The notes under the pieces were generated by a model. It did not search any database. It was not told the DNA's origin and was given only the letters and a program-made list of their open reading frames with translations. Position numbers and translations under genes: made by a program. Source: Actinomycetota bacterium (GTDB lineage Bacteria > Actinomycetota > Thermoleophilia > Solirubrobacterales > Solirubrobacteraceae). From it: DNA of 35,123 bases. Shown here one piece after another: positions 11,211 to 34,224 of the stretch. Where the stretch lies: positions 1 through 35,123 of the forward strand of contig VAWY01000066.1 of assembly GCA_005888335.1 (NCBI GenBank), in the 5' to 3' direction. Position 1 is the first letter of the stretch. Each line of letters starts with the position of its first letter.

Positions 11211-11256
11211 CACAGCGGCCCTTGCAAGGCGGCCGACTTTCGCCGATACATCCTTT

Positions 11257-13726: not shown

Positions 13727-16255
13727 CTAGCGCCTGACGGTCAGGCGCTTGACGGTCTTGTTCCCCGCGGGGTCGGTGACGACGATGACCAGGAGGTAGC
13801 GGCCCGGGCGGACGAGCCGTCCGCGACGGTTGCGCCCGTTCCAGCTGACCGTCACGATGCCGGGGTCCTCGAGCTTGATCGTGGCGAGCTTGCGGACGCC
13901 CTCGATCCTCGCCCTGACCGTGGCCGGCTCGTTGACCGTGAAGCGGATGCGGTTGACGCCGCCGCGGCGGCTCGTCGTGAGCGACCGCACGCGCGGGGCC
14001 CGGCGGTCGACGACGATCGTGCCGGTCTTCGGAGTCAGCTGGTTGCCCGCCGCGTCCTTGCCGGTGATGCGCCAGGTGTAGACGCCGCTCACCGCCTGGC
14101 TCGCGGCGGCGGTCAGGCCGTTCCAGCTGGGGCGCGCGACGGTGCCCTGGCCGATCTGGGTGAAGATCGCGTTGTTCCCGGACAGGACCTCGAACGTCCA
14201 TGACGTCGGCTCGGAGAAGCGGGCCACGATGTCGAGCGTGTCCTGAACGCCGTCGCCATTGGGCGAGATCCGCGTCTCGTTGACCGTGATGCCCGTGATC
14301 GACGGAGCCGTCAGGTCGGGAGCCGGCGCCGGGGGCGGGAACGCGGGCGGGGGCGGACGCAGCGAGTTCTCGACGTCGGGCAGCACGTTGTCGAACTCGT
14401 TCGGCTGGCCGTCGTTGGCGACGCCGTCGAGCGTGACCGACACCTGCAGCTCGCGAGCGTGGTAGTCGACGACGTCGATCCCGTTGCCGCCGCTGAAAAC
14501 GTCCGACCCGTTGAGCAGGTCGCCCTCGTCGAAGCGGTCGTTGCCGTCCTCGCCGTTCTCGGTGTCGTTGCCGAACCCGCCGTTGATCACGTCGTTGCCG
14601 GCGCCGCCGTTGATGACGTTGTTGAGGTCGTTGCCGGTCAGCGTGTCGTCGAAGGCCGAGCCGTTGATGTTCTCGATGCCGAAGATCGTGTCGGTGCCGG
14701 CGCCGCCGCAGGCGTTGGTGCCGCCGCAGAGGTCGGTGCTCCCGAGGTCGACCGTGACCTTGGTGTCAGCGTCGGAGTAGTCGACGACGTCGGTGCCCGG
14801 CCCGCCGTAGATCTCGTCGCTGCCGTTGCCGCCGCTCAGGACGTCGTCGCCGTCCCCGCCGGCCACCGAGTCGGCGCCTTCGCCGCCGAACACCCTGTCG
14901 TTGCCGTCGTCGCCGGCCAGAGCATCGTTCCCGTCGCCGCCATCGATGACGTCGTCGCCGTGACCGCCGCCGATGCTGTCCTCGCCCTGACCGCCGTCGA
15001 CGACGTCGTTCCCATCGCCGCCGGACATCCTGTCGTTGTTGTCGCCGCCGTCGACGTGGTCGTTGCCGTCGCCGCCGGAGACGCTGTCCTCGCCCTGGCC
15101 CGCGTCGATGTCGTCGTTGCCGTCGCCGCCGCCGATCTGGTCGTCGCCCTGGCCACCGTCGATCTCGTCGTTCCCGTCGTTGCCCGAGATGGTGTCGCTG
15201 CCGTCGCCACCGCTGATGTGGTCGTCACCCTCGTCGCCGGCCAGGGTGTCGTCGCCCGAGCCGCCACGGATGGTGTCGCTCCCGGCGCCACCCGAGATCT
15301 CGTCGTTGCCGTCGCCGCCGTCGATGACATCATCGCCTTCGTCGCCGGCGAGGTTGTCGTCGCCCGCGCCGCCGGTGATGGTGTCGTTGCCGTCGCCGCC
15401 AGAGATCTCGTCGTTGCCGTCGCCACCGTCGATGACGTCGTTGTCGTCTCCGGCGAAGATCTGATCGTCGCCGGCGCCGCCCTCGATGGTGTCGCTGCCG
15501 CTGCTGGCGGCCTGCACGATCACGCCGCTCGCCGTGACGGTCCCACTCGAGTCGCCGCTATAGAGCGTGTCCGAACCGGCGCCGCCGTCGAGATCGTCGC
15601 TGCCGCTTCCGCCGAAGATGGTGTCGTTGCCGGCGTCGCCGTCGATGTTGTCCTCGCCGTCTTCGCCGTACAGCGTGTCGTCGCCGTCACCGCCCGAGAT
15701 CTGATCGTCGGCCTGCCCGCCGAAGATCTGGTCGGCTCCGGTGCCGCCGTCGATGTCGGCAGGGATGTCCTTCAGCCCGGCCGCGCTGATGATGTCGTCC
15801 TTGTCGAGGGCGTCGACCTCGACCTTCGTGACGTTGGGGCAGAAGAACTGCTGCTCGCCGGTCGTGCGGTTGTCGGGGGCCGGGGCGGGGCCGCTTGGGA
15901 CCTCCGCGCACTGGTCCGCCGCGAGGTTCGGCTCGTCAGCCGGGGGAGCCTCGTCGATCGGGTCTTCGTCCGAGAAGCGCGTGACGCAGACACCCTCGAA
16001 GGCATTCGGGTCGTTCGGGTCCTCGAACTCGCAGGTCGTCTGGTCCGCGACCGGAGTGGGGTTGGGGTCGATGAACCCGAGGTCCTCGTCGAAGCTCACG
16101 TCGTTGAACCTGCCGGGATCGGCCTTGAAGTGCAGCGTCCCGTCCGCGGTGATGAACAGGTCCGCCGCGTTGGCGGCCGGAGCGCTGCAGAGCAGCAGCC
16201 CGAAGACGAGGGCGATGAGGGTGAGCGGCTTGCGTGAAGGTCGAAGCGAAGGCAT
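13727..16255 (-). CDS. Secreted RTX-type calcium-binding repeat protein with FlgD-like Ig domain
   Basis: The roughly 842-residue protein starts with a Sec signal peptide (KPLTLIALVFGLLLCSAPAANA). A unique N-terminal domain of about 130 residues with Cys pairs follows. Then come about 34 consecutive nonapeptides of the GGxGxDxxx type (GGDGNDEIS, GGAGDDNLA, GDEGDDVID), and a second block of about five after a 'TDLCGGTNACGGAG' break. These fold into Ca2+-loaded parallel beta-rolls outside the cell. After a Pro-rich linker there is a FlgD-type Ig domain ('ISPNGDGVQDTLDIVARFSE', 'GVYTWRITGKDAAGN') and a final beta domain 'TVSWNGRNRRGRLVRPGRYL'. ATG 16255 was chosen for the signal peptide; ATG 16288 and TTG 16333 are alternatives. 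No type I secretion genes lie nearby. Confidence 0.88.
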   Translation of the reverse strand: MPSLRPSRKPLTLIALVFGLLLCSAPAANAADLFITADGTLHFKADPGRFNDVSFDEDLGFIDPNPTPVADQTTCEFEDPNDPNAFEGVCVTRFSDEDPIDEAPPADEPNLAADQCAEVPSGPAPAPDNRTTGEQQFFCPNVTKVEVDALDKDDIISAAGLKDIPADIDGGTGADQIFGGQADDQISGGDGDDTLYGEDGEDNIDGDAGNDTIFGGSGSDDLDGGAGSDTLYSGDSSGTVTASGVIVQAASSGSDTIEGGAGDDQIFAGDDNDVIDGGDGNDEISGGDGNDTITGGAGDDNLAGDEGDDVIDGGDGNDEISGGAGSDTIRGGSGDDTLAGDEGDDHISGGDGSDTISGNDGNDEIDGGQGDDQIGGGDGNDDIDAGQGEDSVSGGDGNDHVDGGDNNDRMSGGDGNDVVDGGQGEDSIGGGHGDDVIDGGDGNDALAGDDGNDRVFGGEGADSVAGGDGDDVLSGGNGSDEIYGGPGTDVVDYSDADTKVTVDLGSTDLCGGTNACGGAGTDTIFGIENINGSAFDDTLTGNDLNNVINGGAGNDVINGGFGNDTENGEDGNDRFDEGDLLNGSDVFSGGNGIDVVDYHARELQVSVTLDGVANDGQPNEFDNVLPDVENSLRPPPPAFPPPAPAPDLTAPSITGITVNETRISPNGDGVQDTLDIVARFSEPTSWTFEVLSGNNAIFTQIGQGTVARPSWNGLTAAASQAVSGVYTWRITGKDAAGNQLTPKTGTIVVDRRAPRVRSLTTSRRGGVNRIRFTVNEPATVRARIEGVRKLATIKLEDPGIVTVSWNGRNRRGRLVRPGRYLLVIVVTDPAGNKTVKRLTVRR
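14780..15750 (-). repeat. Degenerate 27-bp tandem repeats encoding RTX nonapeptides
   Basis: About 34 in-frame units of roughly 27 bp run through this part of the RTX gene. On the plus strand they read as repeated 'gtcgttgccgtcgccgcc' variants. Codon-level divergence between units (gcc/gtc/gac alternation) shows an old, diversified array rather than a recent expansion. The array is interrupted once near 15500-15560 by a non-repeat stretch (SSGTVTASGVIVQAASS in the protein). The repetition also generates long spurious frames on the opposite strand. Confidence 0.85.
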
Positions 16256-16508
16256 GGAGAGCCGTGGACCGGTGGCGGCGGGTGACATGTGCAGCAGGAT
16301 CGCTGCGGCCCGGGGAGCGCCGCTATCGAGCAATCCGCCAAAACCGGTGCGTCAGCGCGCAGTTTGGTTGCGCGATCTTGCAACCCTGCAACTGCACTAC
16401 GCAGCGGCGAGGAAGTCGCGCGCGAGCGGCAGCAGCTCGGCCGGCCCGACCGCAGCGACAGGGCAACCCTCACCGTCGACTTGAGGTAGAGAGCGGCCCT
16501 CGGGAGGC
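16256..16508. promoter_or_regulatory. Intergenic region upstream of RTX gene and downstream of lemA
   Basis: I see no convincing gene in this 253-bp region, although longer starts for the RTX gene would use its first 78 bases. It holds an inverted repeat GGTTGC (16366-16371) / GCAACC (16380-16385), followed by short TGCAA/TGCAC direct repeats up to about 16397. That element lies about 110-130 bp upstream of the chosen RTX start and could be an operator (inference). The end near 16500 follows the lemA stop without an obvious terminator. Confidence 0.3.
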
Positions 16509-20915: not shown

Positions 20916-23167
20916 TCAGTCCAGCGAGAGCCCGCCGGCCTTGCTCAGGGCCGCCATGCGGGCGGCGTAGTAGCCGCCGTCGTCGTCGGCCGATGTCGAG
21001 GGCGTGGAGTACTTGCCGCCGTTCGTCGTCCCATCGTGCTTGGCGTCGCACGGGCACGTCTCGTCCGCCCCCGAGCCGACGCCGAACATCACGCCGATCA
21101 CACCGGCGTCGCGCAGCTTCCGCAGCCCGCTGAAGCGATCGTCTCCGACGAGCCACTGCACCCAGGTGTCGTGCCAGTGGTAGGGCTTGTCGGTGATCGC
21201 CTTGGAGACGGTGTTGCCCAGCGGCACGCCCTCGAGGACCACCCGGACGTGGGCGCGGGCCGAGAACTCGCGCACGTAGGTGACCACGGCCGCCTTCTCG
21301 GCCGGCGAGTAGTTGTTCGTCGGGCTCGGGTCCTCGCCCTCCTCGGCGAGCCCGTTGATGGTCAGCGCCGCGAAGTCGAGGTCGCCGGCGGCGACCGTCT
21401 CGTAGAACTGGCCGGCCAGCCGCGCCGCCTGGACGACCGTCTGCTCGGGCGGGTTGTCCGAGCGCGAGATGTCGAGCGTGTCGGAGGCGTAGTCGTCGAA
21501 CTCGTAGCCGAGCCGGACCTTCGGCGCGTAGCGGTCGCGCAGCTCGCGCCAGCCCGCAGCGATGTACTGGAGGTTGTCGGGGATGCCCTTGAGCTCGGGG
21601 AGGCCGGTGCCGCCGACCCACGCCTGCACGCTGGCCGGGCTCGCGCCCTGCGGGACGAGCTGCTTCTCGAGGTAGGACCAGAAGTTGGAGTCCAGGCTGA
21701 CCGCCGCGGTCTGCCGCGTCGAGCCGACATCCTGCAGGAAGGCCTTGACGTTGCGCCAGTAGATCCGCATCAGCCGGACGTTCCCCAGCGTCTGGCGCAG
21801 CTCGGGCGCCTGGGCGTCGTCGCCGGCGCGCGACTGGCCGAGCGAGCGCAGCGAGTAGAAGCTCAGGTAGGGGAACAGCCCGAGGCGGTGCGCGGTGCGC
21901 ACGAACTGTCCGGGGCGCGTCTCGCCCGGCTGGTGCGACCAGTCCTTCTTGGCTGCAGCGTCACCGCCGTACACCGCGAAGGTCGTGCCGCCCCGGCCCA
22001 CGCGCTGCGCGACGCCGGCGGGTCCCTTGACCTGGTCGATGAACCCGGAGGTCACTTTCGTGGGCCACCCGAGCGGGGCCGCCGGCAGCGTCGGCGTTCC
22101 GGCGCCACCCGAGGACAGGACCAGCACGGCGACCGCGGCGACCGCAGCCACCGCCACCCCGGCAAGCGCGCCGAGCACCCGCCCGCGCGCGGGCGCGACC
22201 GGGAGCGTCGTCGTCAGGGTCTCGTGCTCGACGAGCGCCGGCCGCTCGGTGAGCGACGTGCGATGCAGGACGATGCCCGTCGCCGCGAGCCCGCCCGTGG
22301 CGAGCGTGCGGTCCGCGGCCGGCTCGAGCGCCGCCGCGAACATGCCCGGCGTTGCATAGCGCTCCGCCGGGTCGCGCCGCAGCGCCTGCATGACCACCTC
22401 GGCGAGCTCGGGCGCGAGGTCCGGCGCGACCTCCTGCAGCGCCGGCACGTCCTCGGTCACGCGCCGGAACAGGACGTCGCCGAGATCGCCGGTCAGGGGG
22501 AACGGCGGCTGCCCGGCGAGGATCTCGTAGAGCACGGCGCCCGCGGCCCAGACGTCGGTGGCCGACGAGAGCGGCCCCGCGCTCCGCGTGACCTGCTCGG
22601 GCGCCATGTAGGCCGGGGTGCCGATCGCGGCCGCGGTGGCCGTCAGCCGCGCGCCCTGGGCGCCGACGACCTTGGCGATCCCGAAGTCGGCGACCTTGAC
22701 CTGGGACGCGTCGCCGAACAGCAGGTTCTCGGGCTTGACGTCGCGGTGCAGGACGCCCTGGCGGTGCGCGTGCTCGAGCCCGTGCAGCGCGCCGAGCATG
22801 ACCGCGATCGCCCACGGGTGGGCGACGGGCCCGCGTGCGAGGCGGTCACCAAGCGTGCCGCCGCGCAGGCGCTCCATGACGAACGCGCAGACGTCCTCCT
22901 CCTGTGGACGCGCACGATGTGCGGATGGTCGAGCGAGGCCAGCAGGCGCGCCTCGGCGGCGAAGCGCTCGCGTGCGTCGGCCTCGACCAGGAGCACGGGC
23001 GACAGGCGCTTGATGGCGACCTCGCGGTCCAGGCGGCGGTGGCGGGCGGCGTAGACGACCGCGAACGAGCCGCGCCCGAGCACCGCGCCGATCTCGTACG
23101 CGGGCAACGCGGTCGCGAGCTGATCGCGCTCGCGGTCCCGGGGGACTGTCTCTCTGGTCTCGCGCAC
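20916..23167 (-). CDS. Ser/Thr protein kinase with extracellular TIM-barrel-like domain; apparent frameshift near 22895-22905
   Basis: Two frames must be joined to give a single product of about 749 residues. The GTG at 23167 opens the N-lobe: Gly loop [10 protein letters not shown], Lys53 in VAIKRL, '[10 protein letters not shown]'. At AGGAGGAGG (plus strand 22895-22903) the reading frame moves by -1 to '[12 protein letters not shown]'. It continues with the catalytic [17 protein letters not shown] and YMAPEQ. A single TM ([20 protein letters not shown]) leads to an extracellular domain of about 400 residues. Its motifs ('FWSYLEKQL', '[16 protein letters not shown]', 'VPLGNTV', '[17 protein letters not shown]', 'DDDGGYY') recall a glycoside-hydrolase-like TIM-barrel family. 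Neighbours are an FHA-HTH regulator (divergent) and two GH5 genes, suggesting carbohydrate sensing. A mutation, a sequencing error or programmed frameshifting are all possible. Confidence 0.83.
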
Positions 23168-23273
23168 TCCTTGCGCTCCCCTTCGCTCGTTGGGACGCTA
23201 CCGCTGATGGGGGGCAGCGATCCACCCCTATTGGGCATTGCGTCGCACCGGCCGGGCAGGCGAGAATCGGCCC
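23168..23273. promoter_or_regulatory. Divergent promoter region between kinase and FHA-HTH regulator
   Basis: This 106-bp gap carries a G6 tract (23209-23214) and ACCCCTATTGGG (23224-23235), which together form a dyad of G- and C-runs. It resembles the elements at 954-1000 and 8066-8115. On the kinase strand, GGGGAG and AAGGA precede the GTG start. Both genes must be transcribed from here. No convincing -35/-10 pair was found, so operator status is an inference. Confidence 0.4.
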
Positions 23274-23963
23274 ATGCCCGCGACGAGCGCCCCTTTCGGC
23301 CCCCATTGGGCCTCGGCGGCCGAGCTGAAAGAGCAGCTCGAGGCCGAGCGCCGGGGCGAGCCGTTCCTGGTCTACCGCGACGGCGAGGGCGTCCAGCGCA
23401 TCGTCACGCTCCCGCCGACGGCCGGCTGCCTCACGGTCGGGCGCGACCCCGCCACCGACATCTGCCTGTTCTGGGACGACGAGGTCTCGCGCGTCCACGC
23501 CGAGCTCGAGCGGCTGGGCCCCGACTGGACCGTCGCCGATCACGGGCTGTCGCGCAACGGCACGTTCGTCAACGGCCACCGGATCGCCGGCCGCCTGCGG
23601 CTGCGCGGGGGAGACGTCATCGACTTCGGGTCCACGCAGGTCGGCTTCCGCTCCCCGCGCGCGCCGCTCGACGCCACCTCCGACGCCCGCTCCCGCGTGC
23701 GGCCGTCGATCAGCGACGCGCAGCGCCGGGTGCTCGTCGCCCTCTGCCGTCCCTACCGCGGCCGCGCGGGCCACGCCGCGCCCGCCTCGAACCGGCAGAT
23801 CGCCGAGGAGCTGTTCCTCAGCGTCGAGGGCGTCAAGACGCAGATCCGCGGGCTCTTCGAACGCTTCGCGGTCGAGGACCTGCCGCAGAACCGCAAGCGG
23901 GCGCGGCTCGTCGAGCTCGCGTTCTCCAGCGGCACGATCACCGAGCGCGACCTCGAGGACTGA
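23274..23963 (+). CDS. FHA domain protein with C-terminal HTH
   Basis: The 229-residue protein has an FHA domain at about 50-125 with the phosphothreonine-binding residues visible: 'TVGRDPATDI' (Gly56-Arg57), 'SRVHAEL' (72-78) and 'NGTFVNG' (95-101). A C-terminal helix-turn-helix-like region follows (about 150-215), 'ISDAQRRVLVALCRPY' then 'SNRQIAEELFLSVEGVKTQI', which resembles LuxR/sigma region 4 recognition helices. FHA domains bind phospho-Thr peptides made by Ser/Thr kinases, and such a kinase is encoded divergently 106 bp away. The protein could therefore be a phospho-responsive transcription factor for the locus (inference). ATG 23274 has only a weak ribosome site. It ends 11 bp before the convergent GH5 gene. 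Confidence 0.9.
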   Translation: MPATSAPFGPHWASAAELKEQLEAERRGEPFLVYRDGEGVQRIVTLPPTAGCLTVGRDPATDICLFWDDEVSRVHAELERLGPDWTVADHGLSRNGTFVNGHRIAGRLRLRGGDVIDFGSTQVGFRSPRAPLDATSDARSRVRPSISDAQRRVLVALCRPYRGRAGHAAPASNRQIAEELFLSVEGVKTQIRGLFERFAVEDLPQNRKRARLVELAFSSGTITERDLED

Positions 23964-23974
23964 GCCCCAGTCGC

Positions 23975-25150
23975 TCAGCGCGCCGCGAGCCACGCCGTCG
24001 GGGCGCTGAAGGCGAGCCGGCCGAGGTCGAGGGCGACCGTCGTGCCGACCGGTGGGCGCGGCGTGCCGCGGGTATCGGCGATGAGGCTGTAGGCCGTGCC
24101 GCCGTGGCACGAGTAGCGGCCGTCCGGGAGCACCCACTCCCAGGCGAGGTAGCCGACCCCATGGCGATCGGCCCAGTCGATGAAGCGGGCGACGTGGCCG
24201 GCGCGGCAGCCGTCGTCGCCGATCTCGGTGGCGACGACGGGGACCTGCGCGGCGACCGGCGCGACCTCGGCGTCCCAGCAGGCCGGCGCGTCGCAGCCTT
24301 GGCCGGGATAGCTGTGCAGGCTCGCGACGAGCTGGTCGTCGGCGGGCCGGTTCGCGAGCCAGCCGGTCAGGTCGTTGGCGTAGTTGCGCCCGGCGAGCAG
24401 GATCGGCTGCCGTGCGCCGGCGCCGCGGATCGCATCGACAAGCGCCTGCATGCCCGCCACGGTGTAGGTCCGGCGGTTCAGCGGGCTGGTGTCGTTGGCC
24501 GTCGGCGCCCGGCAGCCGCCGCCCGACCAGCAGCCCCACGTCAGGTCGAAGGCCGGCGCGTCGCCGTTCCAGCGCGAGTAGGGCTCGTTGAAGACGTCGA
24601 ACATGACCGCGGGGTCGGTGCGGAACCGAGAGGCCACCGACGCCCAGAAGGCGACCGAGCGCTCATCGGCCATCGCTCGCTGGCCCTCGGCCGGCACGCC
24701 GTCGGGGCCGCTCCAGTGCAGGTCGAGGATCACCGCCAGGCCGTGGTGGTGCAGGCGCTCGACCCACGCGCGCACCGCCCGTCGGTAGCCGCGGGCCGTG
24801 CGGTGCGTCGAGCTGTCCGACCGGGGCAGCCCGTCGTCGCCCAGCCAGCAGTCCTGGTTGAGCGGGATCCGCACGGTGTTGACCTGCCAGCGCGCGATGT
24901 TCGCCGCGTCGGCGTCGTCGGGGCCGACGCTCGTGCGGCTGCGCGCGTTGGAGTAGCCGTAGCCGTAGAGGCAGGCGTACTCGAAGCTCGGCCAGTTCAC
25001 GCCGCGCGGGACGAACGGCGTGCCCGTCCGCGCGTCGACCAGCGCGTTGCCGCTGACGTGCGGGGCGGGTGGCGCGGCCACGGCGGCGGGCGCGACCGCG
25101 AGCGCGCAGACGAGGGCGACGGCCGCCAGGGGCCTTCTCCACCGGCGCAT
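23975..25150 (-). CDS. Secreted GH5-type glycoside hydrolase (cellulase family), single domain
   Basis: This 391-residue enzyme has a signal peptide (PLAAVALVCALAVAPAAVAA) and a GH5-type TIM barrel. The entry motif 'FVPRGVNWPSFEYACLYGYG' is followed by 'NTVRIPLNQDCWLG' and the strand 'AVILDLHWSGP'. The acid/base Glu189 lies in 'VFNEPYS' and the putative nucleophile Glu309 in 'VVATEIGDDGC'. 'QPILLAGRNYANDL' and 'LVASLHSYPGQ' are further family-typical strands. Both catalytic Glu are present, so it should be active on beta-linked glycans; the exact substrate is not readable. The ATG at 25150 follows GGGAG. It is the second gene of a two-gene operon with the paralogue upstream (15-bp gap) and ends near the convergent FHA gene. 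Confidence 0.9.
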   Translation of the reverse strand: MRRWRRPLAAVALVCALAVAPAAVAAPPAPHVSGNALVDARTGTPFVPRGVNWPSFEYACLYGYGYSNARSRTSVGPDDADAANIARWQVNTVRIPLNQDCWLGDDGLPRSDSSTHRTARGYRRAVRAWVERLHHHGLAVILDLHWSGPDGVPAEGQRAMADERSVAFWASVASRFRTDPAVMFDVFNEPYSRWNGDAPAFDLTWGCWSGGGCRAPTANDTSPLNRRTYTVAGMQALVDAIRGAGARQPILLAGRNYANDLTGWLANRPADDQLVASLHSYPGQGCDAPACWDAEVAPVAAQVPVVATEIGDDGCRAGHVARFIDWADRHGVGYLAWEWVLPDGRYSCHGGTAYSLIADTRGTPRPPVGTTVALDLGRLAFSAPTAWLAAR

Positions 25151-25165
25151 CACGACGCTCCCGGG

Positions 25166-26710
25166 TCAGCGCACCAGCCTCACCGCGCGCCGGAGCGTCG
25201 CGTTGGCGGCGGTGATGGTGATCGTTGCGGTGACCGATCCGCGGCGGCGCAGGGCGGCCGCCGCCGCTCGCCTCGCCGCCCCGGGCAGCCGCAGCTTGAG
25301 GGTCCGGGTCACGCCGGCGGCGACCCTTGCGGTGGCCGAGCGCAGCGCGTAGCGGTGCCGCCGGCCGCTCCGCCGCTGCGTGACGAGGAGCCGGCCCGCC
25401 GCGCGAGCCCGGCAGCGCGCGGCGCACGTCACGGTCACCTCGACGGCGCCGTCGAGCCGCTGACGCCGCAGTCCGCCGATCGCCAGCGAAGGCGTGCGGC
25501 CGTGCGTCTGGCTCGCCGGCGTCGTATCCGTCGGGACGGGCGTGGGGAGCGTCGGCCCGGCGGAGTTGGCCGGACCGGTCGGGTTGCCCGGCTGCTGGGG
25601 GAGGGCGTCGAGGTGGGCCTTGAACGCGGTGCCGTTCGGCGACTTCGGCGAGCCCTTGACGTCGGCGAGCATGCCGTACTCCGTGCAAGCGGTCGTGTCG
25701 GGCACGAACCACCCAAGGATCGTGTAGCCGACGCCGTGGGCGTCGCCCCAGTCCATGACCGACTTGATGTGCTGGTCGCTGCAGTCGTTCGAGCCGAACT
25801 CGCTGATGATGACGGGCGCCTGGGCGGCGACCGGGACGATCGTGGAGTCCCAGCACGCGCTCTGGCACAGCTGCCCCTTGTAGAGGTGGACGCTCGCGAC
25901 GAGTTGCGCATCGCTGGGGCGATTGGCGAGCCACCCGTTCAGGTCGTTGGCGTAGTCGCGCCCGGCGAGCAGGATGGGCTGGGTCGCGCCCGCCGCGCGG
26001 ATGGCGTCGACGAGCTGGCGCATGCCGACGGTCACGTACGTGGTCCCGTCGAAGGGCTGCGCGTCGTTGGCCTTCGGCGCGTTGCACCCGCCGTCGCGCC
26101 AGCACGCCCAGGTGAGGTCGAAGACCACGGTGCCGTTGTTCTCGGTGCGCGAGTACGGCTCGTTGAACGCGTCGAACATCACCGCCGGGTCGTCCTTGAA
26201 CGTCGACGCGACCGAGGTCCAGAAGGCGGTGGACGTGCTGTCGGGCTGCGCGCGCTGCCCCTCGGCCACGACGCCGCCGGGCGCCGACCAATGGAGGTCG
26301 AGGATCACGGCCAGGCCGGCGGCCTCCAGAGTCCGCACCCAGTCGCGCACGGCAGCGCGATAGCCGTCGACGGTGCCGAACGCCGGCATGCCGTCCTCGC
26401 CGAGCCAGCAGTCCTCGTTGAGCGGGATGCGGACCGTGTTGATGTGCCAGCCGGCCATCAGAGCGGCGTCGGCGGCGTCCGGGCCGACGGCGGTGGCGCC
26501 GGCCGTGTTCGAGTAGCCGTACGCGTAGACGCAGGCGTACTCGAAGCTCGGCCAGTTGACCCCGCGCGGCATGAAGGTCTGGCCCGTCGCCGCGTCGACC
26601 AGGCGGTTGCCGTCGACCCGCAGCAGGGGCGCCGCGGCCTGAGCGCTGGTCGCCGCGCCGAGGCAGGCGGCGGCGAGGAGGACACAGATCGCGATGTGGC
26701 GCACGGGCAT
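25166..26710 (-). CDS. Secreted GH5-type glycoside hydrolase with C-terminal basic beta domain
   Basis: This 514-residue paralogue of the downstream gene shares its whole catalytic core: signal peptide (HIAICVLLAAACLGAATSAQA), 'FMPRGVNWPSFEYACVYAYG', 'NTVRIPLNEDCWLG', 'AVILDLHWSAPGG', acid/base Glu184 in 'AFNEPYS' and nucleophile Glu304 in 'IISEFGSNDC'. Unlike the other copy it continues past the barrel through a Pro/Thr linker (about 370-400) into a roughly 110-residue Arg/Ala-rich beta domain with a CAARCRA pair. That domain could be a carbohydrate- or wall-binding module or an inert surface tether; I cannot name it. The ATG at 26710 follows GGAGGG. It is the leading gene of the GH5 pair and is oriented away from the hydrogenase operon. 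Confidence 0.9.
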   Translation of the reverse strand: MPVRHIAICVLLAAACLGAATSAQAAAPLLRVDGNRLVDAATGQTFMPRGVNWPSFEYACVYAYGYSNTAGATAVGPDAADAALMAGWHINTVRIPLNEDCWLGEDGMPAFGTVDGYRAAVRDWVRTLEAAGLAVILDLHWSAPGGVVAEGQRAQPDSTSTAFWTSVASTFKDDPAVMFDAFNEPYSRTENNGTVVFDLTWACWRDGGCNAPKANDAQPFDGTTYVTVGMRQLVDAIRAAGATQPILLAGRDYANDLNGWLANRPSDAQLVASVHLYKGQLCQSACWDSTIVPVAAQAPVIISEFGSNDCSDQHIKSVMDWGDAHGVGYTILGWFVPDTTACTEYGMLADVKGSPKSPNGTAFKAHLDALPQQPGNPTGPANSAGPTLPTPVPTDTTPASQTHGRTPSLAIGGLRRQRLDGAVEVTVTCAARCRARAAGRLLVTQRRSGRRHRYALRSATARVAAGVTRTLKLRLPGAARRAAAAALRRRGSVTATITITAANATLRRAVRLVR

Positions 26711-26839
26711 GACGAATCCCTCCGCGGCTGCCGCCCGCCTCAGGCAACCCTACGCCGCCCACCGCGCGCCGTCAGCCCCCAGAGGGATGCTTGGGGCCAC
26801 CCCTCGGGCGGCGTCCGGTCATCGCACTGGCCGCGCCTG

Positions 26840-26868
26840 TTGACAAGCGCGGACCCGAGGACTATCGC
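26840..26868 (+). promoter_or_regulatory. Candidate promoter of the hydrogenase operon
   Basis: A perfect -35 hexamer TTGACA (26840-26845) is followed after 17 bp by TATCGC (26863-26868), a partial -10 match (TAT conserved). The start codon of hypC lies about 57 bp further on. It is the best promoter match I found for the operon that follows. The upstream CCCC/GGGG-rich stretch at 26776-26812 may hold an operator shared with the divergent GH5 operon (inference). Confidence 0.5.
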
Positions 26869-26924
26869 TTCCGACATACGGCGGCAGCGCCGAACGCTGC
26901 CAGGACGTCGAGAGGATCAAGGCC

Positions 26925-27191
26925 GTGTGCCTGGCGATTCCAGGCCAGATCCTTGAGGTCGTCGACGAGCCGAACCGGCTTGCCCGCGTCGCCGTCGCCG
27001 GTGTCCACCGAACCGTCAACGTGGGCCTGCTCGACGGCATCGAGCCCGGCGACTGGGTGCTCATCCACGTGGGGTTCGCCATCTCGAAGGTCGACGAGGA
27101 CGAGGCCCAGGCCACCCTCGGCCTCCTGCGCGGCATGGGCACGGAGTACGAGCAGGAGATCGAGGAGCTCAAGGCGAGCGCAATCGAATGA
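26925..27191 (+). CDS. hypC: Hydrogenase maturation chaperone HypC
   Basis: This 88-residue protein begins MCLAIPGQILEV, the HypC signature. Cys2 is the residue that carries the Fe(CN)2CO precursor and contacts the large subunit. It ends with an acidic helix typical of the family (EYEQEIEELKASAIE). It works with HypD as the iron-assembly scaffold and delivers iron to HhyL. The GTG start at 26925 is certain because Met-Cys must be N-terminal, and an AGAGGA ribosome site lies 9 bases upstream. It is the first gene of the operon. The stop overlaps the next ATG (ATGA, 27188). Confidence 0.95.
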   Translation: MCLAIPGQILEVVDEPNRLARVAVAGVHRTVNVGLLDGIEPGDWVLIHVGFAISKVDEDEAQATLGLLRGMGTEYEQEIEELKASAIE

Positions 27192-27430
27192 GCGACGTCG
27201 AGCGGGCGTGCGAGCTTGGGGCCACGGGAGGGCCGAACGCCTTCTCCTGCATCACCTGCTCCGACGAGGGCCGCCCGGCGCGGATCCACGAGCTCGACGA
27301 GGCGACCGGCCTGGCGTTCTGCGAGGACGAGGACGGGCGCTGCGAGGAGGCCGACGTGTCGCTCGTCGCGCCGGTGCAGGTGGGCGACACGGTGCTGGTC
27401 CACGCCGGGGTCGCGCTGGTGCGGCTATGA
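27188..27430 (+). CDS. Second HypC/HupF-like small hydrogenase assembly protein
   Basis: This 80-residue protein ends like a HypC beta-barrel ('EADVSLVAPVQVGDTVLVHAGVALVRL' in part). However, it lacks the N-terminal Met-Cys. Instead it carries 'FSCITCSDEG' (Cys21, Cys24) plus Cys8, Cys45 and Cys52, so it may bind metal differently. Proteins of this type are, from memory, sometimes annotated as HupF-like hydrogenase assembly proteins in actinobacteria. It sits between hypC and hypD with 4-base overlaps on both sides (ATGA at 27188 and 27427), which argues for a role in the same complex. The precise function is unknown; it may be a HypC variant specialised for the group 1h enzyme. Confidence 0.85.
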   Translation: MSDVERACELGATGGPNAFSCITCSDEGRPARIHELDEATGLAFCEDEDGRCEEADVSLVAPVQVGDTVLVHAGVALVRL

Positions 27431-28542
27431 GGTTCGTCGACGAGTACCGCGACGCCGAGCTCGGGCGCGTCCTCGCCGGCGAGATCCTCGCCTCGGTCGA
27501 GCCGGGCCGCCACTACAAGGTCATGGAGGTCTGCGGCGGCCACACGCATTCGATCTACAAGTACGGCGTCGACGACCTCCTGCCGGCCAACGTCGAGCTC
27601 GTCCACGGGCCCGGCTGCCCGGTGTGCGTGATCCCGATGGGCCGGGTCGACGACGGGATCGCCATCGCCCACGAGCCGGGCGTGATCTTCGCCTGCTTCG
27701 GCGACATGCTCCGCGTCCCCGGCTCGAACGGCAGCCTGCTCGAGGCCAAGGCGCAGGGCGCCGACGTGCGGATGGTCTACTCGCCGCTCGACGCGCTGCG
27801 GATCGCCCGCCAGAACCCCGCCCGCGAGGTCGTCTTCTTCGCGATCGGGTTCGAGACGACCGCGCCCTCCACGGCGCTGACGCTCAAGCGCGCCAAGGCC
27901 GAGCGCGTCCCCAACTTCTCGGTGATGTGCAACCACGTCACGATCGTCCCGCCGCTGCGCGCGCTGCTCGAGTCCCCGGACCTGCGCCTCGACGGCTTCA
28001 TCGGCCCGGGCCACGTCTCGACGGTCGTCGGCGCCCGGCCGTTCGAGTTCATCCCCGCCGACTACGGCAAGCCGGTCGTCGTCTCGGGCTTCGAGCCGCT
28101 CGACATCCTGCAGTCGATCCACATGATCCTGCGCCAGCTCGCCGAGGGGCGCTGCGAGGTCGAGAACCAGTACCGCCGCGTCGTCCCGTACGACGGCAAC
28201 GTGGCGGCGCTGCGCGTGCTGGCCGAGGTCTTCGAGCTGCGCCCGCACTTCGAGTGGCGCGGGCTGGGCTTCATCTCGCAGAGCGCGCTCAAGCTCAGCG
28301 CCGCCTACGCGGACCTCGACGCCGAGCTGCGCTTCAGCGTCCCCGGCGTGCGCGTGGCCGACCCGAAGGCCTGCCAGTGCGGCGAGGTCCTCAAGGGCGT
28401 CATCAAGCCGTGGGAGTGCAAGGTCTTCGGCACCGCGTGCACGCCCGAGCGGCCTATCGGGACGTGCATGGTCTCGCCCGAGGGCGCGTGCGCGGCGTAC
28501 TACAACTACGGGCGCTTCGCCCGGGAGCGCGAGGTCGTGTGA
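27427..28542 (+). CDS. hypD: Hydrogenase maturation protein HypD
   Basis: The 371-residue protein has the HypD hallmarks: 'VMEVCGGHTHSIYKYG' with Cys36, 'GPGCPVCVIP' with Cys64 and Cys67, 'FAIGFETTAPSTAL', and the C-terminal Fe-S ligands in 'CQCGEVLKGV', 'WECKVFGTACTPERPIGTC' and 'GACAAYYNYGR'. HypD holds a [4Fe-4S] cluster and together with HypC assembles the Fe(CN)2CO unit. Its length matches the family. The ATG at 27427 is inside the stop of the preceding gene (ATGA overlap), and the end overlaps hypE (GTGA at 28539), so hypD is made in step with its partners. Confidence 0.97.
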   Translation: MRFVDEYRDAELGRVLAGEILASVEPGRHYKVMEVCGGHTHSIYKYGVDDLLPANVELVHGPGCPVCVIPMGRVDDGIAIAHEPGVIFACFGDMLRVPGSNGSLLEAKAQGADVRMVYSPLDALRIARQNPAREVVFFAIGFETTAPSTALTLKRAKAERVPNFSVMCNHVTIVPPLRALLESPDLRLDGFIGPGHVSTVVGARPFEFIPADYGKPVVVSGFEPLDILQSIHMILRQLAEGRCEVENQYRRVVPYDGNVAALRVLAEVFELRPHFEWRGLGFISQSALKLSAAYADLDAELRFSVPGVRVADPKACQCGEVLKGVIKPWECKVFGTACTPERPIGTCMVSPEGACAAYYNYGRFAREREVV

Positions 28543-29618
28543 GCGGGGCGCCGGTCACCGATCGTGAGCAGAGGATCCTCGGGATCATCGAGACCGCGCG
28601 GGGCAAGCGGCCGAAGTTCCGCGACGCGCAGATCACGATGGCGCACGGCGCCGGCGGCAAGGCGACGCAGAGCCTGATCGAGGGCGTGCTCGTCCCGGCG
28701 CTCGGCAACGGCGCGCTGGAGGAGCTCGGCGACGCGGGCTTCGTCGGCGACGTCGCGCTGACGACCGACAGCTTCGTCGTCAAGCCGATCCGCTTCCCCG
28801 GCGGGTCGATCGGCGAGCTGGCGGTCAACGGGACGGTCAACGATCTCGCGGTCGCGGGCGCCCGCCCCGAGGCGCTGACGCTCTCGCTCGTGCTCGAGGA
28901 GGGCCTGGAGGCCGAGACGCTGCGCGCGGAGGTCGACGCGATCGCCGCCGCCGCCCGCGCGGCCGGCGTCGAGGTGGTGGCCGGCGACACGAAGGTCGTC
29001 GAGCGCGGCCACTGCGACCAGATGTACATCTGCACGACGGGGCTGGGGCGGCGCGACCCGCGCGCGCGCCTGTCGCCGCGGGCGCTGCGCCCGGGCGACC
29101 GCGTCCTCGTGTCGGGCGCGGTCGGCGAGCACGGCATGGCGGTCATGCTCGCGCGCGGCGAGTTCGAGCTCGAGGCGCCGATCGAGTCCGACACGCGCTC
29201 GCTGTGGCCGGCGATGGACGCCCTGCTCGACGCGGCGGGGCCGGCGCTGCGCTGCGTGCGCGACGCCACGCGCGGCGGCGTCGCCTCGGTCCTCAACGAG
29301 CTCGCCCGCGCGTCCGGCGTGGCCATGATCGTCCGCGAGGGCGACGTCCCGGTCGCGCCCGCTGTCGCCGGCGCGGCGGAGCTGCTGGGGATCGACCCGA
29401 TGTACGTGGCCAACGAGGGCAAGCTGGTCGCCTTCGTCGCGCCCGAGGCCGCCGAGGCCGCCCTCGCCGCGCTGCGCGGCGCGCCGGGCGGCGAGCAGGC
29501 GGCCGAGATCGGCGAGGTCCGCACCGAGCCGCCGGGCATGGTGCTGATCCAGACGAGCTTCGGCGGGCGCCGCGTGATGGACCAGCTCGTCGGCGACCCG
29601 CTCCCGAGGATCTGTTAG
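28539..29618 (+). CDS. hypE: Hydrogenase maturation protein HypE
   Basis: The 359-residue protein shows the PurM-like ATP-binding fold: 'MAHGAGGKATQSLI', 'LTTDSFVVKPIRFPGGSIGE', 'LAVNGTVNDLAVAGA', 'VVAGDTKVVE', 'RDATRGGVASVLNELA'. It ends with the canonical PRIC, whose terminal Cys359 accepts the carbamoyl group from HypF and is dehydrated to thiocyanate for cyanide transfer to iron. The intact C-terminus indicates a functional enzyme. HypF, the carbamoyl donor partner, is not in the window. The GTG at 28539 overlaps the hypD stop (GTGA). The gene is followed after 2 bases by hypA. Confidence 0.97.
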   Translation: MSGAPVTDREQRILGIIETARGKRPKFRDAQITMAHGAGGKATQSLIEGVLVPALGNGALEELGDAGFVGDVALTTDSFVVKPIRFPGGSIGELAVNGTVNDLAVAGARPEALTLSLVLEEGLEAETLRAEVDAIAAAARAAGVEVVAGDTKVVERGHCDQMYICTTGLGRRDPRARLSPRALRPGDRVLVSGAVGEHGMAVMLARGEFELEAPIESDTRSLWPAMDALLDAAGPALRCVRDATRGGVASVLNELARASGVAMIVREGDVPVAPAVAGAAELLGIDPMYVANEGKLVAFVAPEAAEAALAALRGAPGGEQAAEIGEVRTEPPGMVLIQTSFGGRRVMDQLVGDPLPRIC

Positions 29619-29620
29619 CG

Positions 29621-29981
29621 ATGCACGAGCTCTCGATCGCCGAGGCCATCGTTGCGATCGCGAGCCGGCACGCGGACGGGCGGGCCGTGTCGCGCGTCGA
29701 GGTGAAGGTCGGGCACCTCCGGCAGGTCGTGCCGAGCGCGCTGACGTTCGCCTTCGAGCTCGTCGCCCAGGGCACGCCCGTCGAGGGCGCCGAGCTGGAC
29801 ATCGAAGCCGTGCCGGCGACCGGGCGCTGCCGCGGCTGCGGCGCCGAGTCCGTGCTGGGCGACTTCCCGCTGCAGTGCTCGGCCTGCGGCGGGCTGGACC
29901 TCGAGCTGCTCAGCGGCGAGGAGCTGCTCGTGGACGCACTGGAGCTTGAAGAGGCCTTGACGACGAAGGGAGGAACGGGCC

Positions 29982-29992
<11 letters not shown>
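29621..29992 (+). CDS. hypA: Hydrogenase nickel incorporation protein HypA
   Basis: The 123-residue protein starts MHELSIAEAIV. The N-terminal Met1-His2-Glu3 is the nickel-binding motif of HypA. A zinc site is formed by two CxxC pairs, 'CRGC' (Cys70, Cys73) and 'CSAC' (Cys86, Cys89). HypA delivers nickel to the large subunit, normally with the GTPase HypB, which I do not see here. The length is typical. The start lies 2 bases after the hypE stop. The last 11 bases overlap the hhyS start, whose ribosome site GGGAGGA (29968-29974) is inside the hypA coding sequence. Confidence 0.96.
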
Positions 29993-31031
<1,039 letters not shown>

Positions 31032-31044
31032 AGAGGAGACCCGC

Positions 31045-32835
31045 ATGGCTGTTCGGGAGAAGGTGAAGCCTGAGGCCGGCAAGGTCGTCGACATGGCGTG
31101 GGACCCCATCACGCGCATCGTCGGCAACCTCGGGATCTACACCAAGATCGACTTCGACAACCGCGAGGTGGTGTCGTGCAAGTCCACCTCCTCGCTGTTC
31201 CGCGGCTACAGCGTGTTCATGAAGGGCAAGGACCCGCGTGACGCGCACTTCATCACCAGCCGCATCTGCGGGATCTGCGGCGACAACCACGCGGTCTGCT
31301 CGTGCTACGCCCAGCAGATGGCCTACGGCGTCAAGCCGCCGCCGCTGGGCGAGTGGATCGTCAACCTCGGCGAGGCGGCCGAGTACATCTTCGATCACAT
31401 CATCTTCCAGGACAATCTCGTCTTCGTGGACTTCTGCGAGCAGATGGTCCGCGACACCAACCCGACCCTCTGGGACAAGGCCGAGAAGACCGAGGCCCGC
31501 AACGCCGGCGTCCACGGCTACCGCACGATCGGCGACATCATGCGCTCGTACAACCCCTTCACCGGGGAGACGTACAAAGAGGCGCTGCACATGAGCCGCA
31601 TCGGGCGGGAGATGATCTGCCTGATGGAGGGCCGCCACGTGCATCCCTCCACCATCTATCCGGGCGGCGTGGGGACGGTCGCGACGCCCACCCTGCTGAC
31701 CGACTACCTCAGCCGGCTGCTGCGGTGCCTGGACTTCATCAAGAAGGCCGTCGCGATGAACGACGACGTCTTCGACTTCTTCTACGAGGCCTTGCCGGGC
31801 TACGAGGAGGTCGGCCGGCGGCGGATCCTGCTCGGGTGCTGGGGCGCGTTCAACAACCCCGACCACGTCGACTACGAGTACCGCAACATGGACCACTGGG
31901 GCAACGAGATGTTCGTCACCCCGGGCGTGGTCGTCGACGGCGAGCTCATCACCCACGACCTGGTGGACATCAACCTGGGCATCCGGATCCTGCTCGGCAG
32001 CTCGTACTACAAGGACTGGGTCGACGAGGAGACGTTCGTCACCAAGGACCCGCTCGGCAACCCGGTCGACAAGCGCCACCCGTGGAACCAGACGACGATC
32101 CCCAAGCCACAGAAGCGCGACCTGGAGGGCGGCAACTACAGCTGGGTCATGAGCCCCCGCTGGTTCGACAAGCGCACCGGCGACCACCTGGCGCTTGACA
32201 CCGGCGGCGGCCCGCTGGCCCGACTGTGGGTGACGGCGCTGGCCAACAAGGTCGACACGCCGTACGTCAAGGCGACGGGCAACAGCGTGCTGATCAACCT
32301 GCCCCAGACGCCGAACACGCCGGAGACCAACCTGGAGTGGAAGATCCCGCAGTGGTCCAACGCGATCGAGCGCGACCGCGCGCGGATCTACTTCATCGCC
32401 TACGCGGCGGGGATGGCGCTGCACTTCGTCGACCGCGCCTTCACCGAGGTGCGTGCCGGACGCACGAAGACCTTCGAGGACTTCGACGTCCCCGACGAGG
32501 CCATCGGCTGCGGCTTCCACGAGGCGGTGCGCGGCGTGCTCTCGCACCACCTGGTCATCCGCGACGGCAAGATCGCCAACTACCACCCGTATCCGCCGAC
32601 GCCGTGGAACGGCAGCCCGACGGACTCCTACGGCACGCCCGGACCCTACGAGGACGCGGTCATGGGCCAGCCGATCTTCGAGGAGAACCCCCAGGACAGC
32701 TTCCGCGGCATCGACATCATGCGGGCGGTGCGCAGTTTCGACCCGTGCCTGCCCTGCGGCGTGCACATGTACCTGGGCAAGGGCCGGACGATCAGGCAGG
32801 TGCACAGCCCGATGTTCGGGGCCCAGCACGGCTGA
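31045..32835 (+). CDS. hhyL: Group 1h [NiFe] hydrogenase large subunit
   Basis: The 596-residue catalytic subunit has both nickel-iron ligand motifs: L1 'RICGICGDNH' (Cys75, Cys78) and L2 'DPCLPCGVH' (Cys568, Cys571). After His574 there are 22 residues that a maturation endopeptidase would remove; no such protease gene is visible in the window. The protein oxidises H2, and group 1h enzymes do so at atmospheric concentration to sustain persistence. 'VEYRNMDHWGNEMF'-type central segments and the 'WKIPQWSNAIERDRARIYF' stretch fit the group (trimmed motifs, seen in sequence). AGAGGAG at 31032-31038 precedes the ATG 31045, which lies 13 bp after hhyS. Confidence 0.97.
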   Translation: MAVREKVKPEAGKVVDMAWDPITRIVGNLGIYTKIDFDNREVVSCKSTSSLFRGYSVFMKGKDPRDAHFITSRICGICGDNHAVCSCYAQQMAYGVKPPPLGEWIVNLGEAAEYIFDHIIFQDNLVFVDFCEQMVRDTNPTLWDKAEKTEARNAGVHGYRTIGDIMRSYNPFTGETYKEALHMSRIGREMICLMEGRHVHPSTIYPGGVGTVATPTLLTDYLSRLLRCLDFIKKAVAMNDDVFDFFYEALPGYEEVGRRRILLGCWGAFNNPDHVDYEYRNMDHWGNEMFVTPGVVVDGELITHDLVDINLGIRILLGSSYYKDWVDEETFVTKDPLGNPVDKRHPWNQTTIPKPQKRDLEGGNYSWVMSPRWFDKRTGDHLALDTGGGPLARLWVTALANKVDTPYVKATGNSVLINLPQTPNTPETNLEWKIPQWSNAIERDRARIYFIAYAAGMALHFVDRAFTEVRAGRTKTFEDFDVPDEAIGCGFHEAVRGVLSHHLVIRDGKIANYHPYPPTPWNGSPTDSYGTPGPYEDAVMGQPIFEENPQDSFRGIDIMRAVRSFDPCLPCGVHMYLGKGRTIRQVHSPMFGAQHG

Positions 32836-32846
32836 GGCGCGGCGCG

Positions 32847-33389
32847 TTGGACGACACCCAGGCACGCGAGCGGGTCGCGAGGGTCGACAGCCTCCTCGAG
32901 GAGCTGGAGACCCTCCCCGACCCGCTCGCGCGCCAGACGGCGACCGAGGTCGTGGAGGCGCTGCTCGACCTCTACGGCGAGGGGCTCGCGCGGCTCGTCG
33001 GCTTCGTCGCCGAGCACGACGACGGCGCGCTTGCCGAGGCGCTGGCCGGCGACGAGCTCGTCGGCCACCTGCTGTTGCTGCACGGGCTGCACCCGATGCC
33101 GCTCGCGGCGCGCGTGCAGCAGGCCCTCGACGGCGTGCGGCCCTACCTCGACTCGCACGGCGGCGACGTCGAGCTGCTCGGCGTCGACGAGGGCGTCGTC
33201 CGGCTGCGCCTCGAGGGCAGCTGCAGCGGTTGCCCGTCGTCGGCGGTCACGCTCAAGCACGCGATCGAGGACGCCATCCACAAGGCGGCCCCCGACGTCG
33301 AGCGCATCGAGGCCGACGGCGCCGTCGAGCCGCCGGTCGGCGTGCCGCTGCCGATCGTCTGTGAGATCCCCGGAGTCCGCGCAGGGTGA
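32847..33389 (+). CDS. NifU-like domain protein of hydrogenase cluster
   Basis: The 180-residue protein has an alpha-helical N-terminal half (1-85) specific to this cluster and a C-terminal NifU-type domain: 'VRPYLDSHGGDVELLGVDEG', then 'GSCSGCPSSAVTLKHAIED' with Cys126 and Cys129. NifU C-terminal domains bind [4Fe-4S] clusters and donate them to apoproteins, so it may load or carry clusters for HhyS (three [4Fe-4S] clusters). The start is uncertain; TTG 32847 is the best-placed candidate, 11 bases after the hhyL stop, with only a weak ribosome site. The stop overlaps the next GTG (GTGA, 33386). Confidence 0.9.
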   Translation: MDDTQARERVARVDSLLEELETLPDPLARQTATEVVEALLDLYGEGLARLVGFVAEHDDGALAEALAGDELVGHLLLLHGLHPMPLAARVQQALDGVRPYLDSHGGDVELLGVDEGVVRLRLEGSCSGCPSSAVTLKHAIEDAIHKAAPDVERIEADGAVEPPVGVPLPIVCEIPGVRAG

Positions 33390-34033
33390 CCCAGACGCTC
33401 GCCTCGTCTCGGCTGGGCCGGCTCGCCCAGCGCTCCGCCACCGACCGCGAGGCGGCCCTCGAGCGCTGCGAGCTGTGCGGCGAGCCCATCCCGCGCGAGC
33501 ACCGCCACCTGCTCGATCTCGTCGGCCGCGAGCTGATGTGCGCCTGCCGCGCCTGCTCGCTGCTCTTCGACAGCCACGCGGCCGGCGCGGGGCACTACCG
33601 GCTCGTCCCCGACCGGCGGCTGCGGATCGCCGACCTCGACCTCGACGACGCGGCGTGGGAAGAGCTGCGCGTCCCGGTCGACATGGCGTTCTTCTTCCAC
33701 AGCTCGCCGGCCGGGCGCGTCCAGGCGTTCTATCCGGGGCCGATGGGGGCGACCGAGTCGCTGCTCGGCCTGGAGGCGTGGGCGGACCTCGAAGCGGCCA
33801 ACCCGGTGCTGCAGACGCTCGAGCCCGACGTCGAGGCGCTGCTCGTGAACCGCGCGCGCGGCGCCCGCCAGCAGTGGATCGTGCCGATCGACGAGTGCTA
33901 CGCGCTCGTCGGGCTGATCCGCAGCCACTGGAGAGGCCTGACGGGCGGCAAGGAGGTCTGGGTCGAGATCGCCCGCTTCTACGAGGAGCTCGACCGGCGC
34001 TCGCGGCCGGCGAGCAGAAGGGACACGAGATGA
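33386..34033 (+). CDS. DUF5947-type hydrogenase-cluster protein with Cys motif
   Basis: This 215-residue protein starts with GTG inside the preceding stop. Near its N-terminus it has a probable metal site: 'CELCGEPI' (Cys28, Cys31) and 'CACRACSLL' (Cys52, Cys54, Cys57), like a rubredoxin or zinc ribbon. The remainder ('VPVDMAFFFHSSPAGRVQAF', 'LVNRARGARQQWIVPIDECY', 'IRSHWRGLTGGKEVW') is, from memory, the DUF5947 family that accompanies actinobacterial group 1h hydrogenases. The biochemical role is unknown. The Cys motif would suit electron transfer, perhaps from HhyS to quinone partners, or cluster assembly (inference). The stop overlaps the next ATG (ATGA, 34030). Confidence 0.88.
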   Translation: MTQTLASSRLGRLAQRSATDREAALERCELCGEPIPREHRHLLDLVGRELMCACRACSLLFDSHAAGAGHYRLVPDRRLRIADLDLDDAAWEELRVPVDMAFFFHSSPAGRVQAFYPGPMGATESLLGLEAWADLEAANPVLQTLEPDVEALLVNRARGARQQWIVPIDECYALVGLIRSHWRGLTGGKEVWVEIARFYEELDRRSRPASRRDTR

Positions 34034-34221
34034 CCGAGAACCCCAGGCCCGACCTGCCCGCGCACGTCAAGGGCATCAAGCAGGGCAACTCCAGGGGCAA
34101 CTACGAGGCGATGAAGGGCCACAACCCCGACGGCACGTCGACCTCCGAGCGCTCGACCGGCGTCAACCCCAAGGCGCACAACCCGATCGACCCGCGCATG
34201 CCGAACCTCTCGCCGGCGTAG
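34030..34221 (+). CDS. 63-residue protein of hydrogenase operon, function unknown
   Basis: This very small protein begins MTENPRPDLPAHVKGIKQG and continues with an Asn/Pro/Gly/Lys-rich stretch ('NSRGNYEAMKGHNPDGTSTS', 'GVNPKAHNPIDPRMP'). It has no Cys, no TM and no signal peptide, and is probably disordered. Its start overlaps the previous stop (ATGA) and the next gene follows 3 bases after its stop, so it is translated as part of the chain. This placement is the main support that it is real. I do not recognise the family. It could be a structural or assembly peptide for the hydrogenase complex. Confidence 0.75.
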   Translation: MTENPRPDLPAHVKGIKQGNSRGNYEAMKGHNPDGTSTSERSTGVNPKAHNPIDPRMPNLSPA

Positions 34222-34224
34222 GGC

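Follow-up and report, generated by a model that had tools for sequence, protein, structure and literature searches.

In mycobacteria, Ser/Thr kinases and their FHA-domain partners can be encoded at one locus, as is the case for PknB-Rv0019c, PknF-Rv1747 and PknH-EmbR (PMC4238996). EmbR of Mycobacterium tuberculosis is a transcription factor in which an FHA domain is combined with a DNA-binding domain, its phosphorylation by PknH is FHA-dependent, and the PknH ectodomain contains a cleft that could accommodate lipids (PMC4601284). PknQ, encoded on a plasmid of Mycobacterium ulcerans, carries a borrowed FepB-like external module and phosphorylates a nearby FHA partner, MupFHA (PMC4238996), and kinases of the PknD type are membrane kinases with a C-terminal external sensor in the form of a beta-propeller ectodomain (PMC4601284). 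Here, we report the analysis of a 35,123-nucleotide stretch of DNA (hereafter the window; positions 1 to 35,123 of contig VAWY01000066.1, GenBank assembly GCA_005888335.1) from a soil bacterium of the Actinomycetota (Solirubrobacteraceae), which carries genes for a Ser/Thr kinase, an FHA-helix-turn-helix (HTH) regulator and two GH5 glycoside hydrolases. We favor, with moderate confidence, the interpretation that the kinase is a membrane protein that uses a glycoside-hydrolase-like barrel as its external sensor and that it is paired with the divergently encoded FHA-HTH regulator. The observed basis for this interpretation consists of the domains of the proteins, the predicted fold of the barrel, the repeated fusion of kinase and barrel, and the frequent pairing of FHA-HTH proteins with kinases that have other ectodomains.

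An earlier note, made from the DNA letters alone, had named a kinase, an FHA-HTH protein and two GH5 enzymes, and Pfam matches to Pkinase, FHA and PF00150 bear out the kinase, FHA and GH5 assignments. The genes lie in the order kinase (minus strand), FHA (plus strand), GH5-A and GH5-B (both minus strand). The kinase and FHA genes are divergent, and the FHA gene is arranged tail-to-tail with the GH5 pair, ending 11 bases from GH5-A, which is separated from GH5-B by 12 bases. The motifs that had been listed are likewise present. Counted from the TTG start, the FHA domain has its GR block at 68, SRVH at 84 and NG at 107; the two GH5 proteins, which are 59-60% identical to one another, have the Glu pair expected of the family, with one Glu in NEP and the second in TEIG (GH5-A) or SEFG (GH5-B); and a single hydrophobic segment in the predicted protein separates the kinase from the barrel. 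The HTH of the FHA protein is LuxR-like and falls below the Pfam cut-off (GerE, E-value 0.0041, 17.2 bits vs 23.5). Pfam scans of this protein gave only the FHA domain and the weak LuxR-type HTH, with no EmbR-type domains (OmpR-type DNA-binding plus BTA), and thus we do not file it as a member of EmbR.

The proximity of an FHA-HTH gene to a kinase gene is recurrent. Among 146 genomes of the family to which G005 belongs (the genome carrying L038, titled Solirubrobacteraceae), 69 contained relatives of the FHA protein at E-values of at most 1e-10, and a single genome had as many as 13 matches. Ten of these 69 genomes, chosen for long contigs as judged from coordinates, were used to measure linkage, and kinases were mapped in them with PF00069 at E-values of at most 1e-15, giving 126 places. 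A kinase lies within 3 kb of 22 of the 32 FHA places, which include a few FHA-only matches, vs 0.64 expected under random placement of kinases, or approximately 34 times the expected number. The linked arrangements are convergent in 14 cases, same-strand in five and divergent in three, and a single orthologous locus seems to account for many of the convergent ones. The kinase-beside-FHA arrangement that the earlier note had described is therefore a recurrent one, as measured for the FHA family. Seven FHA-linked kinases (six of the ten-genome set plus one from G373) were scanned for their ectodomains: five gave propeller-type matches (mostly weak), one gave a CHRD match below the cut-off, one gave no match, and none has a barrel. 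Since the ectodomains differ, we read them as swapped sensors, and these sequences fit one kinase/FHA-HTH pairing with exchangeable sensors. No description of an FHA-HTH/kinase pairing in Thermoleophilia was recognized by title and abstract start in the open PMC literature.

As with PknH and EmbR, the kinase and FHA regulator of the window are neighbors, and this recurs in relatives at the level of the FHA family. They differ from that pair in that the HTH is C-terminal and LuxR-like, and in that the ectodomain is a barrel rather than the cleft domain described for PknH. The likeness to PknQ-MupFHA lies in an external binding module that the kinase has borrowed and in a nearby FHA protein; the differences are that the PknQ module is of the periplasmic-binding type and that the available part of that account names no DNA-binding domain for MupFHA (PMC4238996). 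The window kinase resembles the PknD type in being a membrane protein and in carrying its external sensor at the C-terminus, and five of the seven FHA-linked kinases scanned gave propeller-type matches, whereas the sensor in the window is a barrel and not a beta-propeller. Thus, the kinase and FHA regulator of the window probably form a pair of an already known kind, with a barrel ectodomain for which we found no described precedent in the open PMC literature.

The barrel has no match in Pfam or NCBIfam. Its structure model consists of eight strands alternating with helices, that is, a (beta/alpha)8 arrangement, and of the 50 VIA structural matches shown for this model, 49 are titled glycoside hydrolases and one is an engineered protein; the Foldseek list also contains a few other barrels. 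The predicted fold and its structural matches thereby sustain the earlier description of the domain as glycoside-hydrolase-like. Searches of the PDB by sequence yielded nothing convincing, with a best E-value of 0.6 for the profile and of 0.12, outside the barrel, for the query P0028. The barrel has the (beta/alpha)8 architecture of the clan GH-A glycoside hydrolases, a clan that includes GH35, GH5, GH26, GH113, GH53 and others, but its identity to them is 5-12% and no Pfam match links it to them.

Protein searches with the barrel, which scored approximately 8,000 candidates sharing the most words, returned 30 relatives in a first search of shorter proteins and 39 in a second search using a whole-protein length window. 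Nineteen of these (P0031-P0049) are full-length kinase-barrel proteins, 725-781 aa long, in which Pfam recognizes kinase domains; P0031 is almost identical to the window protein, whereas P0049 is only 35% identical. The existence of 19 full-length examples indicates that the kinase-transmembrane-barrel fusion is a stable architecture. The other barrel relatives are single proteins, many of which may be secreted, judging from a hydrophobic segment at the N-terminus. In P0022-P0024 and some Nocardioides loci (L001, L002), a non-kinase N-terminal region is followed by a hydrophobic segment and then by the barrel, so the barrel is used with different N-terminal parts. Secreted-type members of the barrel family (for example, P0028, which has no Pfam match, and L053), with EPDxWGY at beta-4 and a nearly invariant CxCDxxxDGxTN...DDDGG region, constitute a candidate unassigned hydrolase family.

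In clan GH-A enzymes, strands beta-4 and beta-7 each end with a Glu, and the site after beta-4 in our model is their acid/base position. The earlier note had placed a Glu at this site in related sequences and had taken its absence from the window to suit a binding-only role. That placement was correct, since in a MAFFT alignment that includes fragments, from which all of the family column counts derive, 112 of 124 rows have Glu in the beta-4 column and the other 12 have Asp. The window barrel has Asp133 at beta-4 and Glu286 at beta-7. Among the 19 kinase-fused barrels, 11 have Glu and eight have Asp at beta-4, and 16 have Glu or Asp at beta-7. All four of the secreted relatives compared have Glu at beta-4 and Trp at beta-7, and Trp occupies beta-7 in 99 of 127 rows across the wider family; the kinase-fused forms are thus mostly acidic at a position where the secreted relatives compared are not. 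The most conserved polar positions of the family (D238, N292, H304, D307 and DDDGG) are retained in the window. Because the change from Glu to Asp is conservative, occurs in part of the kinase-fused forms and is found together with a beta-7 carboxylate, the loss of the Glu does not establish a binding-only role, although such a role is possible.

We also searched for the barrel in genomes and looked at its neighborhoods. Barrel matches at E-values of at most 1e-5 were found in 35 of 399 genomes of the class and in 27 of 146 genomes of the family; six weak matches in class genomes came without a locus, one of which later became L114. At 1e-40, the barrel was matched in one of 129 genomes of another order, and at 1e-90, P0017 was matched in none of 232 genomes of the order, with up to five candidates scored per genome. 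A scan of genome contigs kept 80 of 87 confirmed loci, with a best identity of 43%. The first 110 barrel loci, which are at most 43% identical, gave one kinase match (L025, the sole barrel locus of these searches with one) and no FHA or GH5 match; 30 of these loci (L081-L110) carry only approximately 1.5 kb per side. A scan of neighbors at 14 loci picked for having both flanks covered 56 of 80 listed proteins, the other 24 being dropped for set size, and no family recurs in more than four of the 56. With no recurrent neighbor family, the neighborhood assigns no function to the barrel family.

Several points weigh against the pairing of a barrel-sensing kinase with the FHA-HTH regulator. The genome searches recovered no kinase-barrel fusion locus besides the window, and so the tie of a barrel-type kinase to an FHA protein is seen in the window alone. 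Several of the linked FHA/kinase cases are probably orthologues, so that they do not amount to 22 independent events; for ten of the 32 FHA relatives, the surrounding 3 kb contain no kinase; and none adjoins the closest relative of the FHA protein (G420:C220, L177, on a 7.4-kb contig). Of the five propeller-type ectodomains, three were matched only below the curated cut-off and two above it. Finally, the window kinase is out of frame.

The N-lobe lies in another frame than the C-lobe, transmembrane segment and barrel, with the break at 22901-22904. All of the Hanks-type motifs (P-loop, VAIK, HRD and DFG) are present, spread over two frames in the window and contained in one frame in P0031, an intact 753-aa protein in an ENA-derived public set that is identical to the window at 88 of 88 N-lobe residues and, over the remainder, at 657 of 660 aligned positions. 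The motifs, predicted membrane segment and barrel of the transmembrane Ser/Thr kinase in the earlier note are present; the split between frames had been overlooked. A 1207-aa open reading frame at 20916..24539 was rejected as a single gene or protein, since the N-lobe sits in a different frame. A plasmid search matched 657 records, none over more than 80% of the query, and the ten matches listed covered the kinase part. Given that P0031 is intact and near-identical, either the allele in the window is broken or the break is an assembly or sequence error. If the former, the kinase might be a decaying pseudogene in a neighborhood that has no joint function in this genome, as its two lobes are in different frames while 21 of 39 barrel relatives carry a Pfam kinase domain on the same protein. 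We regard this as possible but doubtful, given the intact copy, the coding-like GC bias by codon position that the FHA and GH5 genes retain, and an assembly error being equally likely. We find it unlikely that the barrel is instead an active membrane-anchored glycoside hydrolase, with the kinase coupled to its catalytic cycle or serving as a mere anchor. The predicted fold, the acidic residues of the kinase-fused forms (Glu or Asp at beta-4 in 19 of 19, in addition to those at beta-7) and the intact polar positions would agree with such an enzyme, but Asp at beta-4 in the window and the prevalence of Trp at beta-7 in the family mean that the standard catalytic pair is not established, and no protein of solved structure is convincingly related to the barrel in sequence.

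The earlier note had gone further, proposing a loop in which the barrel senses glycan and, through the kinase and the FHA-HTH protein, controls the adjacent GH5 pair. Relatives of the GH5 enzymes occur in 18 of 146 genomes at 21 places, 20 of which, all but a short second match in G362, were examined with their flanks for FHA and kinase matches by tblastn at 1e-8. Both were found within approximately 10 kb of GH5 at two loci (L158 and L159), in a cluster with a cellulose-synthase-like GT2, GH8, a PMT-type protein, GH5, FHA-HTH and kinases; the FHA-HTH match of L159 is split into two stretches. Together with the 11 bases between the FHA gene and GH5-A in the window, this co-occurrence in two other genomes favors the loop. 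However, the GT2 genes of L158 and L159 are 89% identical, so these loci represent one inherited, syntenic cluster, and their GH5 proteins are just 37-40% identical to those of the window. The other 18 loci, including the four closest relatives (52-61% identity), gave no FHA or kinase match, six of them being weak negatives with less than 9.2 kb of DNA, and the 90 bases upstream of GH5-B share no word of at least 7 bases with the kinase-FHA gap. A conserved linkage of kinase, FHA and GH5 elsewhere is thus borne out for the first two and not for GH5, whose part in the loop is weak and comes from the window and one other cluster; we consider the full loop improbable. Adjacency of all of the genes by chance appears less probable still. 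The neighborhoods of the barrel relatives are not conserved, and for the GH5 part a chance arrangement stands as an explanation, but the excess of kinase-FHA proximity over expectation already makes it unlikely for the kinase and FHA genes. As a separate observation, one of the L158/L159 kinases has no membrane segment and one has two FHA domains, and we note the cluster as a candidate FHA/kinase-controlled glucan cluster.

Table 1. Features of the kinase, FHA-HTH and GH5 locus, in window positions
Feature	Position	Strand	Basis or remark
External (beta/alpha)8 barrel, unannotated family, glycoside-hydrolase-like fold	20919..22088	-	
C-lobe of Ser/Thr kinase (HRD, DFG) with transmembrane segment and external barrel	20916..22901	-	PF00069 positions 71-254, E 2.8e-34
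Predicted transmembrane segment, kinase/barrel junction	22116..22181	-	Hydrophobic run from GRVLGAL, judged from sequence
Ser/Thr kinase N-lobe (P-loop, VAIK)	22904..23167	-	PF00069 positions 1-63, E 1.1e-9
Kinase/FHA divergent intergenic gap, 106 bases	23168..23273	.	Kinase start to likely FHA start
FHA-HTH regulator	23238..23963 (from TTG)	+	Pfam FHA E 2.1e-17; ATG 23274 is the likelier start
GH5-A, probably secreted	23975..25153	-	Pfam PF00150 E 8.3e-27; hydrophobic N-terminus
GH5-B, probably secreted, extra C-terminal region	25166..26710	-	Pfam PF00150 E 1.5e-27; hydrophobic N-terminus

Elsewhere in the window, a hydrogenase region follows directly (26791-34872), with a HypD-like gene recognized by eye, a HypE-like AIRS gene and an NiFe hydrogenase small subunit; by its position only, the open reading frame at 31045-32835 is probably the NiFe hydrogenase large subunit. 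Positions 13727-16333 encode a protein with 15 RTX-type calcium-binding repeat stretches, and positions 8982-12954 encode an NHL-repeat protein followed by an Ig-like-domain protein.

If the window encodes a membrane kinase with a barrel sensor and a paired FHA-HTH regulator, as we favor, the barrel would bind, or slowly turn over, an external polysaccharide, and this contact would switch the kinase. The FHA domain would read phospho-Thr on the kinase or on a partner, and the HTH may act at promoters near the locus, the GH5 pair being no more than a possible target. Provided that these steps hold, the pair would work in the manner of PknH-EmbR-type pairs. Carbohydrate sensing and control of GH5 are offered here as hypotheses.

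More tentatively, bacteria of the Solirubrobacteraceae type might possess many-copy kinase/FHA-HTH circuits with exchangeable sensors, of which one branch took over a glycoside-hydrolase-type barrel to serve as its polysaccharide receptor and kept two pocket carboxylates. Most bacterial membrane Ser/Thr kinases have no known ligand. An enzyme-like barrel outside the cell and a paired FHA-HTH protein inside would make up a defined and testable chain that leads from an external ligand to transcription. The repeated pairing of FHA-HTH proteins with kinases of varied ectodomains would provide a single bacterial group with many chains of this sort. If this is true, such circuits would be a Ser/Thr counterpart of two-component systems.

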